Shown here in pieces: positions 17,102 to 35,737 of a stretch of DNA of 64,000 nucleotides (positions are counted from its first letter, which is position 1; each line of letters begins with the position of its first letter). The translations under genes and the position numbers were made by a program. Source of the DNA: Brevibacillus brevis (GTDB lineage Bacteria; Bacillota; Bacilli; Brevibacillales; Brevibacillaceae); NCBI RefSeq assembly GCF_031583145.1, contig NZ_CP134050.1:3175501-3239500 (forward strand). Reading direction: 5' to 3'. Under the pieces are notes generated by a model, which saw only the letters and a program-made list of their open reading frames with translations, searched no databases and had not been told where the DNA came from.

Positions 17102-17116
17102 GTTCATAACGATTCG

Positions 17117-17215
17117 TTATACCTCTTCCTCCGCTGGCATGACCCAGTTCAGGTTCAACGGTCAGTAGCACTCTCGCTACAATCTCAGCCGACGATGCTC
17201 GGCCCCCGTTTGGTA
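17117..17215 (-). ncRNA. TPP riboswitch (THI element)
   Basis: Read on the minus strand the segment contains the conserved THI-box blocks in order: ACGGGGGCC, GGCTGAGA, then CCGTTGAACCTGA, CTGG and GCCAGCGGAGG. These form the two helical arms that hold the pyrimidine and the pyrophosphate of thiamine pyrophosphate. It precedes thiS and its terminator, so the whole thi operon should be shut off when TPP is high. Confidence 0.96.
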
Positions 17216-17260
17216 ATCTTTTTATGCGATTGTCGTTCGTTCGAGTTCTACACTACCACT

Positions 17261-29571: not shown

Positions 29572-30456
29572 TTAGACCGACAGCTGACGTCTGAATTCAA
29601 CAGGCGTCAGCCTTTTTAATTTTCGTTGTGGTCGACTTTGGTTGTAGAATTGAATATATTCCTCAATTCGCCTTTGTGCCTCATCCACACTTCGGATATC
29701 ATAAGGGTAGAGCCCTTCCGTTTTGAGATGCGAGAAGAAGCTCTCCATCGAGGCATTATCATAACAGTTGCCTCTCCGAGACATGCTGATTTGGGCGCCA
29801 ACCTTCGGCAACATGTCGTGGTAAGCGTAGGACGTGTACTGGAATCCCTGATCGCTGTGAACGATCAGTCCAGTCACGTCTTTCGTCTTTTTAAAGGCTT
29901 TCTCAAAGGTCCGTAGGACCAACTGATTGTCGTTGCGAACTCCAATGTGGTAAGCCACAATCTCATTATTAAACAAATCCTTAATAGCAGACAGGTAGAG
30001 CCACGTATCCGCGACACGATACTGTGTGACATCGGTTACCCATTTTCGATTAGGTGCATCCGCTTTGAAATTCCGCTGCATCACATTCTCAGCGACTCGT
30101 CCACCTTCGGTTGAAGCATAGTGACCTCGATATTTGCGGCGTATTCGAGAACGGAGCTTCATTTCTTGCATCAGACGTAGTACCTTCTTATGGTTGACCC
30201 ATACCCCGTGATCTCGTAAGAGAAACAGCTGGGTTTGTCGATACCCATATTTACCATCATACTTCTTATAAACTACTTTGATGAGGTCTTTCACGGGCTT
30301 GTCCCGGTCCGCTTGTTGCCGTTTCAAGTATGCATAGTATCCACTTCTTGAGACTCCAAACAGGTTGCAAAGTTCACTAGTCGTATACTCACCAGCTACT
30401 TGCTTGATCGCCTCATACTTATGGGCTGCACCTCCCGCATCCAGATTTTCAAACAC
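29572..30456 (-). CDS. IS3-family transposase OrfB (DDE integrase domain)
   Basis: The 294-residue catalytic half has the HTH_21 segment Y-G-Y-R-Q-T-Q-L and the rve integrase core with Asp in W-V-T-D-V-T-Q-Y, Asp in V-H-S-D-Q-G-F-Q-Y and Glu in N-A-S-M-E-S-F-F. It is normally made as an OrfAB fusion by a -1 shift at the A-AAA-AAG heptamer at 30456-30462, which lies in the overlap with orfA. All catalytic residues are present. Confidence 0.93.
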   Translation of the reverse strand: MFENLDAGGAAHKYEAIKQVAGEYTTSELCNLFGVSRSGYYAYLKRQQADRDKPVKDLIKVVYKKYDGKYGYRQTQLFLLRDHGVWVNHKKVLRLMQEMKLRSRIRRKYRGHYASTEGGRVAENVMQRNFKADAPNRKWVTDVTQYRVADTWLYLSAIKDLFNNEIVAYHIGVRNDNQLVLRTFEKAFKKTKDVTGLIVHSDQGFQYTSYAYHDMLPKVGAQISMSRRGNCYDNASMESFFSHLKTEGLYPYDIRSVDEAQRRIEEYIQFYNQSRPQRKLKRLTPVEFRRQLSV

Positions 30457-30834: not shown

Positions 30835-31791
30835 TCAAAAATCGAACCGGAAATCGTCATCCGACAACGGCTCGATGTGAATGGAGCGGACGTAGCCATT
30901 GCCTTTTTTGGAGAAGAAGTCGTGCTGCTTCGTCTGCGTGCGGATTCCGTTGAGGACGATCGGATTGACCTCCTCCTCCGGGAAAAGAGGGTCGAGTCCC
31001 AGATTCATCAACGCTTTGTTGGCGTTGTACCGGACGTAGGCATGCACTTCCTCAGCCAAACCGATGGAGGAGTACAGCTCGGCGGTATACGCTTCTTCAT
31101 TGCGATGCAGGTCCTGCAGCAGCTCGTACAGTTCCTCCTTGGCCTCACGCTGCTCTTTTACACTCAGGCGCTGAAACACTTCCTGCGCGAGCACGCCCAC
31201 ATACAAGCCGTGGATGCTCTCGTCGCGAACGATCAGGTCGATGATCTCGCCGCTGCTCGTCATTTTGCCCTGACCCGACAGGTAGAGCGGATAGAAGAAG
31301 CCGCTGTAAAACAGATAGCTCTCCAAGAAGACGGAGGCCACCATGGCCATGTACAAGTCTTTCTCTGTTTGGATTGACTGATATCGGCTGGAAATACGGT
31401 CTGCCTTGTACTGCAAGTGTGGATTCTGCTCGACCCAGCGGAAAATCTCGTCAATTTCCTCCGTCGACGCCAACGTGGTAAAAATGCTGCTGTACGACTT
31501 CGCATGGATCTGCTCCATCATGCCCATAAAGGCGAGTACGGCTTTTCTTTGAAGGCCGTCCACATGCTCCATGATCTTCGGCATCCCCACGCCGCCTTGG
31601 ACCGTATCCAGGAGCGTAAGGCCGCCAAGCACCTTTTTATACGTATCCCGCTCTGCCTGCGACAGCTCGATCCAGGCCATTTTGTCATCCGACAGCGGGA
31701 TTTCATCGTCGGTCCAGAACTGCATGATGTTCTGGTTCCAAAACGTCATCGTAAAATCGTCATCCGGCCTGTTCCAATTGACTGCTTTCAT
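30835..31791 (-). CDS. nrdF: Class Ib ribonucleotide reductase beta subunit NrdF
   Basis: NrdF (318 residues) carries the dimanganese- or diiron-tyrosyl radical used by NrdE. Visible are the metal ligands in E-Q-I-H-A-K-S-Y and D-E-S-I-H-G, and the radical-site region near Y-S-S-I-F. A GAGG site precedes the ATG. It is the last gene of the nrd operon, 38 bp after the serine hydrolase gene, and an IS3 element sits directly downstream where a terminator would be expected. Confidence 0.96.
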   Translation of the reverse strand: MKAVNWNRPDDDFTMTFWNQNIMQFWTDDEIPLSDDKMAWIELSQAERDTYKKVLGGLTLLDTVQGGVGMPKIMEHVDGLQRKAVLAFMGMMEQIHAKSYSSIFTTLASTEEIDEIFRWVEQNPHLQYKADRISSRYQSIQTEKDLYMAMVASVFLESYLFYSGFFYPLYLSGQGKMTSSGEIIDLIVRDESIHGLYVGVLAQEVFQRLSVKEQREAKEELYELLQDLHRNEEAYTAELYSSIGLAEEVHAYVRYNANKALMNLGLDPLFPEEEVNPIVLNGIRTQTKQHDFFSKKGNGYVRSIHIEPLSDDDFRFDF

Positions 31792-31829: not shown

Positions 31830-32849
31830 CTATGGGACACAGCCCATGACCCGATCTCCAAATCCTCTCACATCCGCCAAATAATCGTAGCCGGGAGGGG
31901 AACCGAAGCTGTTGAACATCCGTACCGCCACCAGATCGCGGGAAGGAACCACGAGCAGCGTCACGCCTGTATACCCCAATATCTGGTAGGATCCCTTGGG
32001 CACCCGCTCGCCGATTTCCGTTTTTCGTGCGGGCAAGTCTTTAACGAACCACAAAAAGCCGTTTTGCGGCAAGTCCTTGTCCTGCAAGGGAGGACTTTGC
32101 AGCGAGGTCGCCATCTCGATGATTTCCTTCGGCACGATCTGCCTGCCAGCCACCAAGCCTTTTTTCAAGTGCACGTACCCCCAAAAGGCGAGCTCGCGTG
32201 CCGAAACGTACAGATTCATTTTGTCGCCCTCGGTGCTCGTGCTGGTGTACCAGCTCGGGTGATTCGGCTCGCGGATAACCTCTGCCATCTTTTCATTCAT
32301 CGCGGCCCGCCAGCCTGTTTCGGCAAATCCCAACGGTGCAAATATTTGTTCGCTTACGATTTGCGCAATCGTTTTGCCTGTGGTCCTTTTGACAATGTCG
32401 GCGAGCATGTCGATGCCTACGCCGCGATACGACCAGCCCTGCCCGGGGGGAAACTCGCGGATGATCTCGCCAGTATAGGTGCCGTTCAATCCGTGTGTAT
32501 GCGTAAGGAGATGGCGGATCGTCGTCCCGGTCATCACCTTCGCATCCACGTGTGTAAGGTAATCTGTCACCGGATCGTCGATCGATCGGATCGCCCTCGC
32601 AACTACGGCATAGGCGACGGCGTAGCCGATGTAGCTCTTCCGTACCGACGCGACGTGAAACTGCGTATCCGCCTGGATTTCACGAGAATCCGGCTCCAGG
32701 GAATGCCTGCCCCAGTATTTTTCCGCCGCGATCGCATCGTTGTGGATGACCATCATCGCTGCACCGGAGCAAACCACTTGCTGATACGTATGTTCCACAT
32801 GCCGGACTACGGGTTCGAACTGCATCGTTTGCTTTCGGCTCAAATCCAT
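31830..32849 (-). CDS. Class C beta-lactamase-fold serine hydrolase
   Basis: The 339-residue protein has the S-x-x-K motif S-V-R-K near residue 69, a Tyr motif in W-S-Y-R-G (Y-R-G, where class C enzymes have Y-x-N) and G-Y-T-G near 296 replacing the K-T-G box. It therefore belongs to the broad esterase/peptidase branch rather than true AmpC. There is no signal peptide, so it is cytoplasmic. It lies between nrdE (69 bp upstream) and nrdF (38 bp downstream) on the same strand, so it is probably co-transcribed with the reductase. Confidence 0.85.
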   Translation of the reverse strand: MDLSRKQTMQFEPVVRHVEHTYQQVVCSGAAMMVIHNDAIAAEKYWGRHSLEPDSREIQADTQFHVASVRKSYIGYAVAYAVVARAIRSIDDPVTDYLTHVDAKVMTGTTIRHLLTHTHGLNGTYTGEIIREFPPGQGWSYRGVGIDMLADIVKRTTGKTIAQIVSEQIFAPLGFAETGWRAAMNEKMAEVIREPNHPSWYTSTSTEGDKMNLYVSARELAFWGYVHLKKGLVAGRQIVPKEIIEMATSLQSPPLQDKDLPQNGFLWFVKDLPARKTEIGERVPKGSYQILGYTGVTLLVVPSRDLVAVRMFNSFGSPPGYDYLADVRGFGDRVMGCVP

Positions 32850-32918: not shown

Positions 32919-35003
32919 TTACACCGCGCAGCTGATGCACTCTTCTACCGTCAAATGCTTGGTCCGGGTGTAGTAGAGAGATTTCAGCCCTTTCTTGGCC
33001 GCGTAGATGTAGTAGCGGGCCAGCTCCCTCGTCGACACGTTGCTGTTCACGTGCAGGACGGTCGAGATGCCTTGGTCGATGTGCTCCTGAATTTCTGCGA
33101 TCAAATCGATCACCTTGAACTGGTCGATGACATAAGCCGATTTGTAATAGAAGTAGTTCTCCTGCGACAAGTACGGCATTGGATAGTAGGTCGTGGAGTT
33201 GGCGTACGTTCTCGTTTCGATGTGCTCGACGATCGGCATCACGCTCGACGTCGCGTTTTGGATATACGAGATGCTTTGGGTAGGGGCGATCGCCAGGCGG
33301 TATGCATGATACAGACCATGCTGACGGACGTTTTCCTTCAAGGCAGCCCAGTCCTCCGGAGTCGGAATGTGCATCCCCTCAAACAGCTCTTTGCCTCTTT
33401 CCGTCCTTGGCCGGTAATCGGTACCCAAATACTTGTCGAAGTAGGTCCCTTTCGCATATTCGGACTTCTCGAATCCGAGGAAGGTCGTTCCTTTCTCCTT
33501 CGCGATTTCCATGCTCTTTTCCAGCGAGTAATAGTTCATCATCATGAAGAAGGTTCGGACGAAATCTTTTGCTTCTTCACTCTCGTACGAGATTTTGTTT
33601 TTCGCCAAATACCCGTGCAGGTTCATCGCTCCAAGGCCGACGGAATGCAGCTCCCGGTTCGCCTTTTGCACGCCCGGCGCGTTTTCTACGGCGGTCATGT
33701 CGCTCACGGCCGTGATCGCCTCGATCCCTTCGTAGACGGACTCGCGGATCATTCGCTGTTCCATCACATTCACGATGTTGAGCGACGCCAGGTTGCAGCT
33801 GATATCGCGGCGGATGATGTCTGCCTCTCCGTAGTTGTTGATCGTCGAGGTGTCCTGCAGCTGGAAGATTTCCGTGCACAGATTGGACATTTTGACCGAG
33901 CCAATGTCTTTTAAGGCATGCTGGCGGTTGGCATTGGTCTTGTTCATGATGTACGGATAGCCGGATTCGAGCTGGATCATGGCGATCTTGGTCAGCATCT
34001 CGCGTGCGCTCATGAGCGTCTTCTTCTTGATGCGGTCATTGGCCAGCAGCTCTTCGTACATCTCGTCCAGGTCAAGATCGTCCAGGTGCTTGCCGTATTC
34101 CTTATAGACGGAGTACGGAGCAAAGACGGTCAGCGGCTTGTTTTCCTCCGCCAGCTTGTAGAAGATGTTCGGAACGATCAGCCCGATGGAGAGAGTCTTG
34201 ATCCGTGATTTCTCATCCGCATTGATCTTTTTGGAGTCGAGGAACTCGCCTACATCCCAGCCAAAAATGTTGTAGTAAGCAGCTCCGGAGCCTTTGCGCT
34301 GGCCCATCTGATCGGCGTAGGAAAAAGCGTCTTCCAGAAGCTTGAGCACTGGCATGATTCCTTTTGCCGCCCCTTCGACTCCCTTGATCGGCTCTCCACG
34401 GCCGCGCAGCTTGGACAGATTGACGGCAACGCCTCCCCCGATCTTGGAGAGCTGCATGCAAGTACCCAGAATGTAGTTGATCGAGTTGAGCGAATCGTCC
34501 ATTTCGAGCAGGAAGCAGGATACCATTTCGCCGCGCCGGCTTTTCCCCGCGTTCAAGAAGGTCGGAGTCGCTGGCTGCAGCCGCTGGTCCATCATGGAAA
34601 CGGTCAGCCGCTTGGCCTTCTCGAAGTCTCCTTGTGCCAGAGACAGGGCGACGATGGCCACGCGATCCGGGTACTGCTCCAGGTAATACGCTTTGTCGTC
34701 GGTTTTGAGGGCGTAATCTTTATAAAACTTGGAGATCGCCATGTAGGAAGCGAATTGGAACGAAGCGTCCTTCGCCAGTCGGAACACCTCTTCTACCTCG
34801 GACTCCGAGTACCGATCGTAGACGTTTTCGTAGTAGTCGTTTGCGATCAGGTAATCCATCCGTTCCTTGACGCTGCCGAAAGTGAGCGTCTTCTCCTGCA
34901 CTTCCCGCATGAATTCCTCGACAGCTTCGCGATCTTTCTCCAGTTGGTAAAAACCGTCTGCGCCTCGCTGCATGAGTTCGTTGTTCAGTTCAATATGCCG
35001 CAA
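32919..35003 (-). CDS. nrdE: Class Ib ribonucleotide reductase alpha subunit NrdE
   Basis: NrdE (694 residues) reduces ribonucleoside diphosphates. Conserved parts are P-S/T-F-L-N-A-G near residue 157, S-C-F-L-L-E with an active cysteine, N-L-C-T-E-I near 380 and the C-terminal redox pair in E-C-I-S-C-A-V. Class Ib enzymes lack the ATP-cone, and none is seen here. The likely start is TTG 35003 after GGGGTGG, overlapping nrdI by 14 bp, which gives R-H-I-E-L-N-N-E-L as in B. subtilis NrdE. Confidence 0.96.
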   Translation of the reverse strand: MRHIELNNELMQRGADGFYQLEKDREAVEEFMREVQEKTLTFGSVKERMDYLIANDYYENVYDRYSESEVEEVFRLAKDASFQFASYMAISKFYKDYALKTDDKAYYLEQYPDRVAIVALSLAQGDFEKAKRLTVSMMDQRLQPATPTFLNAGKSRRGEMVSCFLLEMDDSLNSINYILGTCMQLSKIGGGVAVNLSKLRGRGEPIKGVEGAAKGIMPVLKLLEDAFSYADQMGQRKGSGAAYYNIFGWDVGEFLDSKKINADEKSRIKTLSIGLIVPNIFYKLAEENKPLTVFAPYSVYKEYGKHLDDLDLDEMYEELLANDRIKKKTLMSAREMLTKIAMIQLESGYPYIMNKTNANRQHALKDIGSVKMSNLCTEIFQLQDTSTINNYGEADIIRRDISCNLASLNIVNVMEQRMIRESVYEGIEAITAVSDMTAVENAPGVQKANRELHSVGLGAMNLHGYLAKNKISYESEEAKDFVRTFFMMMNYYSLEKSMEIAKEKGTTFLGFEKSEYAKGTYFDKYLGTDYRPRTERGKELFEGMHIPTPEDWAALKENVRQHGLYHAYRLAIAPTQSISYIQNATSSVMPIVEHIETRTYANSTTYYPMPYLSQENYFYYKSAYVIDQFKVIDLIAEIQEHIDQGISTVLHVNSNVSTRELARYYIYAAKKGLKSLYYTRTKHLTVEECISCAV

Positions 35004-35349
35004 TGGTGGCCACCCCGCTCGTAAAATGTTCGATATCCCGGCTGGTGCCGGACAATTCAAATTTGGAAATCACCGGAACGCCGTACTTGCTTGCGATCGT
35101 ATCGGCGCTTTTGGCGAAGGTCGCGCCCCAGTTGCGATTGCCGCTGGCAGACACCCCGCGCATGTATGTATGGTTTCGTTTCAGAAAAGCGTCTACCTTA
35201 GCGGGGACTTGTCCAAATCCGGTCGTATACGTCACCAGGACAAACGGCTCCTCGATGACCATCTCCGGATCGATTTCCACGCTTCGCATCGGTAATTTGT
35301 TTACAAACCTTCTGACGTTCCCTGTCTTGGAATCGTACGCGATGAGCAT
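34990..35349 (-). CDS. nrdI: Flavodoxin-like NrdI, cofactor maturase of NrdF
   Basis: NrdI (119 residues) supplies the oxidant that forms the Mn2-tyrosyl radical of NrdF. It has the flavodoxin phosphate loop Y-D-S-K-T-G-N-V-R-R near the start, T-Y-T-T-G-F-G near residue 41 and G-N-R-N-W-G near 71. The ATG at 35349 follows AAAGGA by nine bases. It is the first gene of the operon, downstream of the cobalamin riboswitch. Confidence 0.94.
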   Translation of the reverse strand: MLIAYDSKTGNVRRFVNKLPMRSVEIDPEMVIEEPFVLVTYTTGFGQVPAKVDAFLKRNHTYMRGVSASGNRNWGATFAKSADTIASKYGVPVISKFELSGTSRDIEHFTSGVATIAAY

Positions 35350-35383
35350 CTGTTTCCATCCTTTCCTCGCGCTTGTCGCAAAT

Positions 35384-35420
35384 GAAAAGCGCATTCGACC
35401 TTGGAGATAGTCGAATGCGC
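35384..35420 (-). terminator. Riboswitch-controlled terminator upstream of nrdI
   Basis: A perfect 11-bp stem GCGCATTCGAC (35389-35399 with 35410-35420) followed on the minus strand by TTTTC. It sits between the cobalamin aptamer and nrdI and is the probable attenuator. Confidence 0.85.
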
Positions 35421-35506
35421 TGTCGATCGTAAAGCAATGCCTGTCAACCCGTACGGGCGAATCGAGCGCTCCAACACTTCCCTATCTCCCGTAGGTTCAC
35501 GTGTCA

Positions 35507-35672
35507 GCGGGCAGGCAGGTCTCCTGGCTCCCGGCTCATCGCTTCATTCCTCCTTCCCAATCAGACATGATCAGTGGCCATTTTCTGGAAAGAAGCTCCC
35601 CGGTTACAGTGGCGGGACCGCGCCGGACTCTCACCGGCTTCCCTATTAAGTCTGCCAATATTTTGTGGCTAG
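35507..35672 (-). ncRNA. Cobalamin (AdoCbl) riboswitch
   Basis: On the minus strand the segment contains the cobalamin signatures in order: AGGGAAGCCGGTG, GTCCGGCGCGGTCCCGCCACTG and the B12 box GAGCCAGGAGACCTGCC, with intervening arms including GGCCACTG. A terminator and nrdI follow. When B12 is plentiful the class Ib reductase should be shut off, which implies that a B12-dependent class II reductase is encoded elsewhere. Confidence 0.95.
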
Positions 35673-35683
35673 ACACCTATCCG

Positions 35684-35699
35684 CATCAATATGTAGTTG
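35684..35699. promoter_or_regulatory. NrdR-like box 1
   Basis: A 16-bp element reading CAACTACATATTGATG on the minus strand, just past the expected transcription start. It repeats box 2 (11 identical bases) at a 31-bp step, the usual spacing of NrdR box pairs. Confidence 0.6.
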
Positions 35700-35708
35700 G
35701 TAAAACCC

Positions 35709-35737
35709 ACTTTACATCAATATGTCGTGGTAGTCAA
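35709..35737 (-). promoter_or_regulatory. Promoter of the nrd operon
   Basis: On the minus strand TTGACT (35732-35737) and TAAAGT (35709-35714) are separated by exactly 17 bp. Transcription would start near 35702, giving a leader of about 350 nt that contains the riboswitch. Confidence 0.65.
35715..35730. promoter_or_regulatory. NrdR-like box 2
   Basis: A 16-bp element reading CCACGACATATTGATG on the minus strand. It fills the spacer between the -35 and -10 boxes of the nrd promoter, a place where a repressor would block polymerase. Confidence 0.6.

Follow-up and report, generated by a model that had tools for sequence, protein, structure and literature searches.

How a bacterium that owns two ribonucleotide reductases decides which of them to make is the question raised by this locus of Brevibacillus brevis. 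In the window, by which we mean the whole 64,000-nucleotide stretch analysed, the minus-strand operon nrdI-nrdE-nrdF of a class Ib reductase follows a leader with a cobalamin riboswitch, and the promoter of this leader carries two boxes resembling NrdR operators. The initial annotation had proposed that this B12-free enzyme would be on only when vitamin B12 is low and the repressor NrdR allows it, an interpretation that the sequence evidence collected here supports. Very probably, two stacked controls, NrdR at the promoter and B12 in the leader, choose between two reductases. The features used in the argument are given below in the order of transcription.

35709-35737, minus strand: sigma-70-type promoter (-35 TTGACT at 35737-35732, -10 TAAAGT at 35714-35709, spacer 17)
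35715-35730, minus strand: NrdR-like box 1, CCACGACATATTGATG, filling the -35/-10 spacer (10/16 to consensus)
35684-35699, minus strand: NrdR-like box 2, CAACTACATATTGATG, at offset 31 from box 1 (10/16 to consensus)
35497-35695, minus strand: cobalamin riboswitch aptamer (RF00174, 119.5 bits)
35474-35504, minus strand: P13-like hairpin (ACAC / CCTA, loop CGGGAGA, TAGG / GTGT)
35464-35482, minus strand: candidate antiterminator strand (3' part of P13 plus adjoining bases), able to pair with 35421-35402 of the terminator (5' strand and loop)
35388-35421, minus strand: intrinsic terminator hairpin of 13 pairs, then TTTTCATTT (stem search; covariation)
35368-35359, minus strand: Shine-Dalgarno-like sequence of nrdI, GAGGAAAGGA (by eye)
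34990-35349, minus strand: nrdI, class Ib assembly flavodoxin (TIGR00333; start taken as ATG 35349)
32919-34997 (start approximate), minus strand: nrdE, class Ib large subunit (TIGR04170, 1034 bits)
30835-31791, minus strand: nrdF, class Ib small subunit (TIGR04171, 487 bits)

The class Ib operon, its leader and its partner reductase

NrdI, NrdE and NrdF each scored above the cut-offs of the class Ib models TIGR00333, TIGR04170 and TIGR04171, which confirmed the class given in the initial annotation, and a scan of the window NrdE for an ATP cone gave no match, as class Ib membership requires. A longer in-frame nrdI starting at ATG 35394 was rejected and ATG 35349 was taken as the start, because the upstream ATG sits inside the terminator. 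The genome (6.23 Mb, 3 contigs) contained two large-subunit reductases, the class Ib NrdE and one copy of a class II NrdJ of the adenosylcobalamin-dependent RTPR type (TIGR02505, above cut-off). It also contained a single nrdR (TIGR00244, 215.9 bits) with zinc ribbon and ATP cone, and no match to a class III NrdD was found in it. Both genes that the annotation had suggested looking for are thus present, including the class II enzyme whose absence was to have counted against it. The closest named nrdE loci were those of Brevibacillus, with 91% identity to B. centrosporus.

The leader was recognized by the RF00174 covariance model over its full length (model positions 1-189) with 119.5 bits against a gathering score of 31.5 (E 2.2e-29), so that the adenosylcobalamin riboswitch read from the letters alone proved to be complete. 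Five further cobalamin riboswitches were found in the genome, of which four precede a corrinoid adenosyltransferase, the cobalt transporter CbiM and two PF01497 substrate-binding proteins, the latter with BtuF matches below cut-off. The remaining one is weak (39.9 bits) and apparently shortened in the middle; it lies at 1501-1668 of locus L006 (G000:C1:347569-347736), shares the GGGAGATAGGG platform motif with the nrdI leader and precedes an open reading frame (ORF) that matches neither Pfam nor NCBIfam.

The attenuator-like terminator of the annotation was recovered as a 13-pair stem followed by a T-rich run. In the 1.2-kb stretch scanned, 3 terminator-like sites were found where 1.4 were expected, so the window alone is little proof, and the evidence came from related leaders. 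A good stem, defined as one of at least 9 pairs that contains no more than one mismatch and leads into a T-rich run, was present in 37 of the 41 riboswitch-bearing leaders and in 20 of 205 resampled sequences, the resampling here and for the box pairs described below being first-order Markov. The leaders that failed were L098, L100, L105 (two mismatches) and L115. The hairpin finder returns a best hairpin in 194 of 205 resampled sequences; the uncontrolled count of 41/41 was therefore dropped. Covariation was assessed on alignments of 37 of the 41 leaders (L115, L116, L118 and L119 were left out, as their platform looked different). Changes on both sides occurred in 10 of the 13 terminator pairs compared with 3.4 in shuffles, none of 500 being as high; since the terminator rows were chosen by the hairpin finder, their percentage of paired cells is biased upward.

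Between aptamer and terminator, the P13-like hairpin was paired in 94.6% of cells (37 leaders aligned, 31 of them distinct), with 11 cells changed on both sides against 2.3 in shuffles. Its loop L13 contains CGGGA, which by eye is complementary to TCCCG in the aptamer loop L5, so that an L5-L13 kissing loop of the kind known for this riboswitch class would be possible (naming after PMC9600662). The 3' part of P13 and the bases after it can also pair with the terminator, and this antiterminator pairing had a z value of -2.1 in the window, a mean of -1.07 and a negative value in 38 of the 41 leaders, the control being a base-by-base shuffle of the terminator strand alone. A simpler antiterminator formed by loop pairing alone, between GGAGATAG and CTATCTCC of the terminator loop, was present in the window and, in almost the same form, in L110; it was missing from most other Brevibacillus leaders and was consequently replaced by the longer one that takes in the terminator 5' strand.

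Fold energies of the window platform depended on how far transcription had gone. Before the 3' strand of the terminator is made, the antiterminator state was lower (-31.6) than the state with P13 kept (-27.4), whereas in the complete platform P13 plus terminator (-42.6) was lower than the antiterminator (-34.1). In this model, the order of the two states is the one that a co-transcriptional, kinetic OFF switch would need.

NrdR-like boxes and the distribution of the riboswitch

The two 16-bp boxes lie exactly 31 bp apart with box 1 filling the -35/-10 spacer, as had been described, and box 2 overlaps both the expected start of transcription and the 5' end of the riboswitch match. The promoter matches 9 of 12 consensus positions, and chance alone would give about one such site in the 1.2-kb stretch scanned. 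The boxes were scored with what we take to be the NrdR consensus. Box pairs were sought within 700 bp before nrdI in the window and in 80 related loci, and the best-scoring pair was found at offset 31 in 39 and at offset 32 in 7 of the 81 regions (46/81 together). The four resampled sets gave 3, 2, 5 and 0 of 81 at these offsets, and other DNA of the same loci gave 5/78. The 46 regions are kin and hence not independent observations, and the window is not one of them. Boxes of relatives at the place of box 1 scored 12-14/16 (e.g., L030, L041, L080), and the 16-mer of box 2 is identical in riboswitch-less Paenibacillus leaders (e.g., L046, L050, L059, L062).

The sole perfect NrdR-box consensus in 6.2 Mb precedes nrdJ, with a 12/16 partner box at offset 32, so that control of nrdJ by NrdR is well supported as a prediction from sequence. 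Allowing up to three mismatches, the consensus pattern gave 23 sites genome-wide against 18 for the control, all but the perfect one being near chance, and the pattern of the window boxes gave 88 matches (34 on the forward and 54 on the reverse strand) compared with 23 for its backwards control. NrdR control of nrdIEF in the window strain is likely, and the case for it is weaker than that for nrdJ. In Saccharibacillus, the best pair upstream of nrdI was at offset 41-42 in 6 of 7 loci (L090, L096, L099, L101, L102, L103) and at 58 in L082, the former offset being like that reported for Streptococcus; the three genomes of this genus searched (L082, L090, L102) had one large-subunit match each and hence no class II enzyme.

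The sample of the window's order comprised 39 genomes of one family and seven genera, 30 of them with nrdI. RF00174 stood directly upstream of nrdI in 29 of these 30, of which 19 were established by coordinates among the matches listed and 10 from fetched stretches (12 nrdI loci were fetched and scanned); the one exception, with no RF00174 upstream of nrdI, was G032. G028 has a second nrdI (G028:C1:1903778-1906096) next to an nrdE in fragments that have internal stops, with no riboswitch in 1.5 kb upstream. Three genomes without nrdI (G003, G025, G036) carried RF00174 before a class I large subunit (L122, L123, L124) that passes TIGR02506 and NF006665 and fails the class Ib model, so that the cobalamin switch appears to stand on different class I enzymes within one order. 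Nine other large-subunit genes taken as class I (L125-L133) had no riboswitch in the stretch fetched.

Among the 80 nearest named nrdE loci, a riboswitch preceded nrdI in 22, namely in 10 of 10 from Brevibacillus and in 12 of 70 others, the latter belonging to Paenibacillus, Cohnella and Gordonibacillus. From the leaders, ten named Brevibacillus ones were removed because they duplicated fetched ones. Absence from the other 58 loci was judged with an nhmmer profile of 18 leaders (the window and 17 of those counted) and not with the covariance model. Eight short nhmmer matches in loci without the riboswitch (32-51 nucleotides, E about 1e-4 to 1e-2) fell in the box region and were excluded from the 22/80. 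On the NrdE tree, riboswitch presence requires at least 7 changes, at least 4 of which are forced by well-supported branches. The boxes lie about 160 bp from nrdI in the riboswitch-less L046, L050, L059 and L062 versus about 370-490 bp in riboswitch-bearing loci, a difference that would fit the gain or loss of a cassette.

A class II match (PF02867) was found in all 29 genomes with a riboswitch before nrdI and in the three class I cases, class II being judged by PF02867 score and length and confirmed by NCBIfam models only for the window genome, G027 (NrdJ_Z-type) and G037 (RTPR). Among riboswitch-bearing Paenibacillaceae it was present in 12 of 12 (L042 was outside the set of Paenibacillaceae covered).

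Several Brevibacillus loci have a second riboswitch after nrdF and before metE (L031 8169-8370, L032 9671-9877, L039 10760-10967), metE being identified by TIGR01371 for L031 and by sequence likeness for L032 and L039. As metE encodes another B12-independent isozyme, the two isozymes lie close together there, each with its own switch. In the Paenibacillus loci L078 and L095, the second riboswitch precedes other ORFs. In the window, metE was not found, and an IS3-family transposase (29572-30456) lies downstream of nrdF instead.

The operon described in the initial annotation has its three genes, with one ORF between nrdE and nrdF that had been missed:

31830-32849, minus strand: beta-lactamase-family ORF (PF00144)

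This serine-hydrolase-like ORF scored far under the cut-offs of named beta-lactamases and occurred in 3 of 11 Brevibacillus loci (the window, L030 and L039). It is accessory and lies outside the regulatory device. Elsewhere in the window, a thiamine pyrophosphate riboswitch is located at 17109-17219 on the minus strand (RF00059, 59.8 bits).

Proposed mechanism and rival explanations

In our best reading, NrdR would set the reductase supply, and B12 would attenuate class Ib whenever class II is able to operate. NrdR loaded with deoxyadenosine triphosphate/adenosine triphosphate (dATP/ATP) would sit on two boxes three helical turns apart, covering the -35/-10 spacer and the start site, so that plentiful deoxynucleotides would lead to repression of nrdIEF; nrdJ would be under the same NrdR via its perfect box. 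In the absence of B12, the terminator would have its 5' strand and loop taken up in pairing with the 3' part of P13 and the bases beyond it, and this antiterminator would permit readthrough into nrdI-nrdE-nrdF. When B12 is bound, the aptamer would hold P13 through the L5-L13 kissing loop and lock the antiterminator strand away, the terminator would fold, and the class Ib operon would be attenuated. A cell with sufficient B12 would then depend on the B12-dependent class II NrdJ. The boxes, the riboswitch, P13 and the terminator recur across genera, and they do so in the layout that this mechanism would require.

Several results weigh against this account. The changes on both sides of P13 were confined to 2 of its 9 pairs, a number reached by 133 of 500 shuffles. 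Support for the antiterminator was moderate, with z below -1.5 in just 12 of the 41 leaders. Left to fold freely and with no ligand, the platform (35510-35380) still forms the terminator, and P13 is absent from its best fold, so that the switch must act during transcription. A class II match was also found in 30 of 37 riboswitch-less Paenibacillaceae (Fisher p 0.17; 3 independent pairs on the tree). A strict rule that the riboswitch occurs only together with class II, although compatible with the 12/12, is therefore not significant, and the co-occurrence, while in keeping with the idea, does not prove it. Finally, the box pair of the window taken alone is no better than chance, with 20/32 compared with 21/32 for a pair that arises by chance at offset 33 within these 700 bp. 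Of what had been claimed for the boxes, the spacing is kept in relatives, but the window pair by itself does not rise above chance; the window boxes are credible because their spacing is conserved in relatives, and only for that reason.

This last point leads to the explanation in which the riboswitch works while the boxes of this strain have lost their function as an NrdR operator, or serve a different factor, and NrdR acts mainly at nrdJ. It accounts for boxes of 10/16 each beside a chance pair scoring one higher and beside the perfect box of nrdJ. We consider it unlikely, as it would leave unexplained the offset of 31 or 32 in 46 of 81 regions, the four-turn offset of 41 or 42 in 6 of 7 Saccharibacillus loci and the identity of box 2 in distant Paenibacillus. 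Moreover, NrdR has been reported to bind boxes with 15-16 and also 24-27 bp between them, that is, three or four turns (PMC12051234).

The leader might instead act chiefly on translation, the hairpin near nrdI being a mere end point. Cobalamin riboswitches can also block ribosome binding (PMC8390425), and the terminator ends only about 40 nucleotides before nrdI. Nevertheless, the strong hairpin with its T-rich run in 37 of 41 leaders, together with its covariation, and the Shine-Dalgarno-like site about 20 nucleotides past the hairpin make this quite improbable. We give hardly any credence to the suggestion that aptamer and boxes are ancestral leftovers without present function. A weakened riboswitch copy does exist in this genome, at L006, but the high score of the nrdI aptamer, its conservation in 29 of 30 genomes of the order and the covariation of its expression platform all speak for a working element.

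Returning to the two stacked controls, we tentatively propose, giving it slightly less than an even chance, that in Brevibacillus and Paenibacillaceae the riboswitch and terminator form a removable cassette between a fixed NrdR operator and nrdI, which may have been repeatedly gained and lost with the operator undisturbed, and that in the window strain nrdJ may be repressed more tightly than nrdIEF. If this were true, NrdR would decide the amount of reductase and the cassette would decide its class, and the perfect nrdJ box versus the weak nrdIEF boxes would give a ranked response.

Relation to known systems

The regulatory idea is already established in other bacteria; the particulars of the present case are the class Ib enzyme, the order-wide distribution and the layout of an NrdR operator plus a riboswitch. 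These extend the rule that B12 decides which reductase is used to class Ib, throughout one order and in part of a neighbouring group, and place it immediately downstream of an NrdR-type operator. Species that have the cassette and relatives that lack it form a natural set for measuring the cost or benefit of B12-gated DNA-precursor synthesis. The finding accounts for ordinary physiology and does not add a new kind of system.

In Streptomyces, the class Ia genes nrdABS are reportedly under a B12 riboswitch and NrdR, with a class II enzyme in the same organism, as the titles of two papers (Borovok 2006, Grinberg 2006) indicate. As far as these titles tell, Streptomyces shares with the window an aerobic B12-independent reductase behind a B12 riboswitch and NrdR on both class I and class II promoters, while the window differs in having class Ib nrdIEF, in belonging to Bacillota and in its RTPR-type NrdJ.

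As to how common such riboswitches are before class Ib in Firmicutes, on which the initial annotation had offered no view, the counts are 29 of 30 in the order and 12 of 70 of the nearest non-Brevibacillus loci, plus nrdEF of Priestia megaterium (PMC8390425). Among the matches listed in our literature search, which left subscription journals mostly outside, none reported this arrangement for Brevibacillus or Paenibacillus. Riboswitch control of reductases was not met under the terms sought in the parts of PMC2211319 and PMC4009431 covered.

In Listeria and Streptococcus, reductase promoters carry two 16-bp NrdR boxes with 15-16 bp between them (offset 31-32) over the RNA polymerase site, a box-pair layout overlapping the polymerase site that they have in common with the window; they differ from it in that the word riboswitch has 0 occurrences in the text covered of PMC12051234. 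Priestia megaterium has cobalamin riboswitches before metE and nrdEF and, like the window strain, is a member of Bacillota with NrdEF behind such a switch and NrdJ in the genome, whereas it belongs to another family of Bacilli and the name NrdR has 0 occurrences in the text covered of PMC8390425. B12-elements before nrdDG in the delta-proteobacteria D. vulgaris and Desulfuromonas, where NrdJ is present (PMC545781), and adenosylcobalamin riboswitches before nrdAB and metE in Bacillus methanolicus (PMC4342826) follow the same logic, in which the B12-free isozyme is shut down when the B12-dependent one can run, and differ from the window in the reductase genes concerned, nrdDG and nrdAB, respectively. 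Propionibacterium acnes combines an NrdR box with a cobalamin riboswitch at nrdAB and a riboswitch with a distant box pair at nrdDG, and it has a B12-dependent nrdJ; according to RNA sequencing, much nrdAB transcription stops behind the riboswitch before the first gene is reached (PMC3848588). This actinobacterium differs from the window in having nrdAB and nrdDG rather than nrdIEF and a single nrd-box at nrdAB, but its two layers of control and their logic are the same as those proposed for the window.

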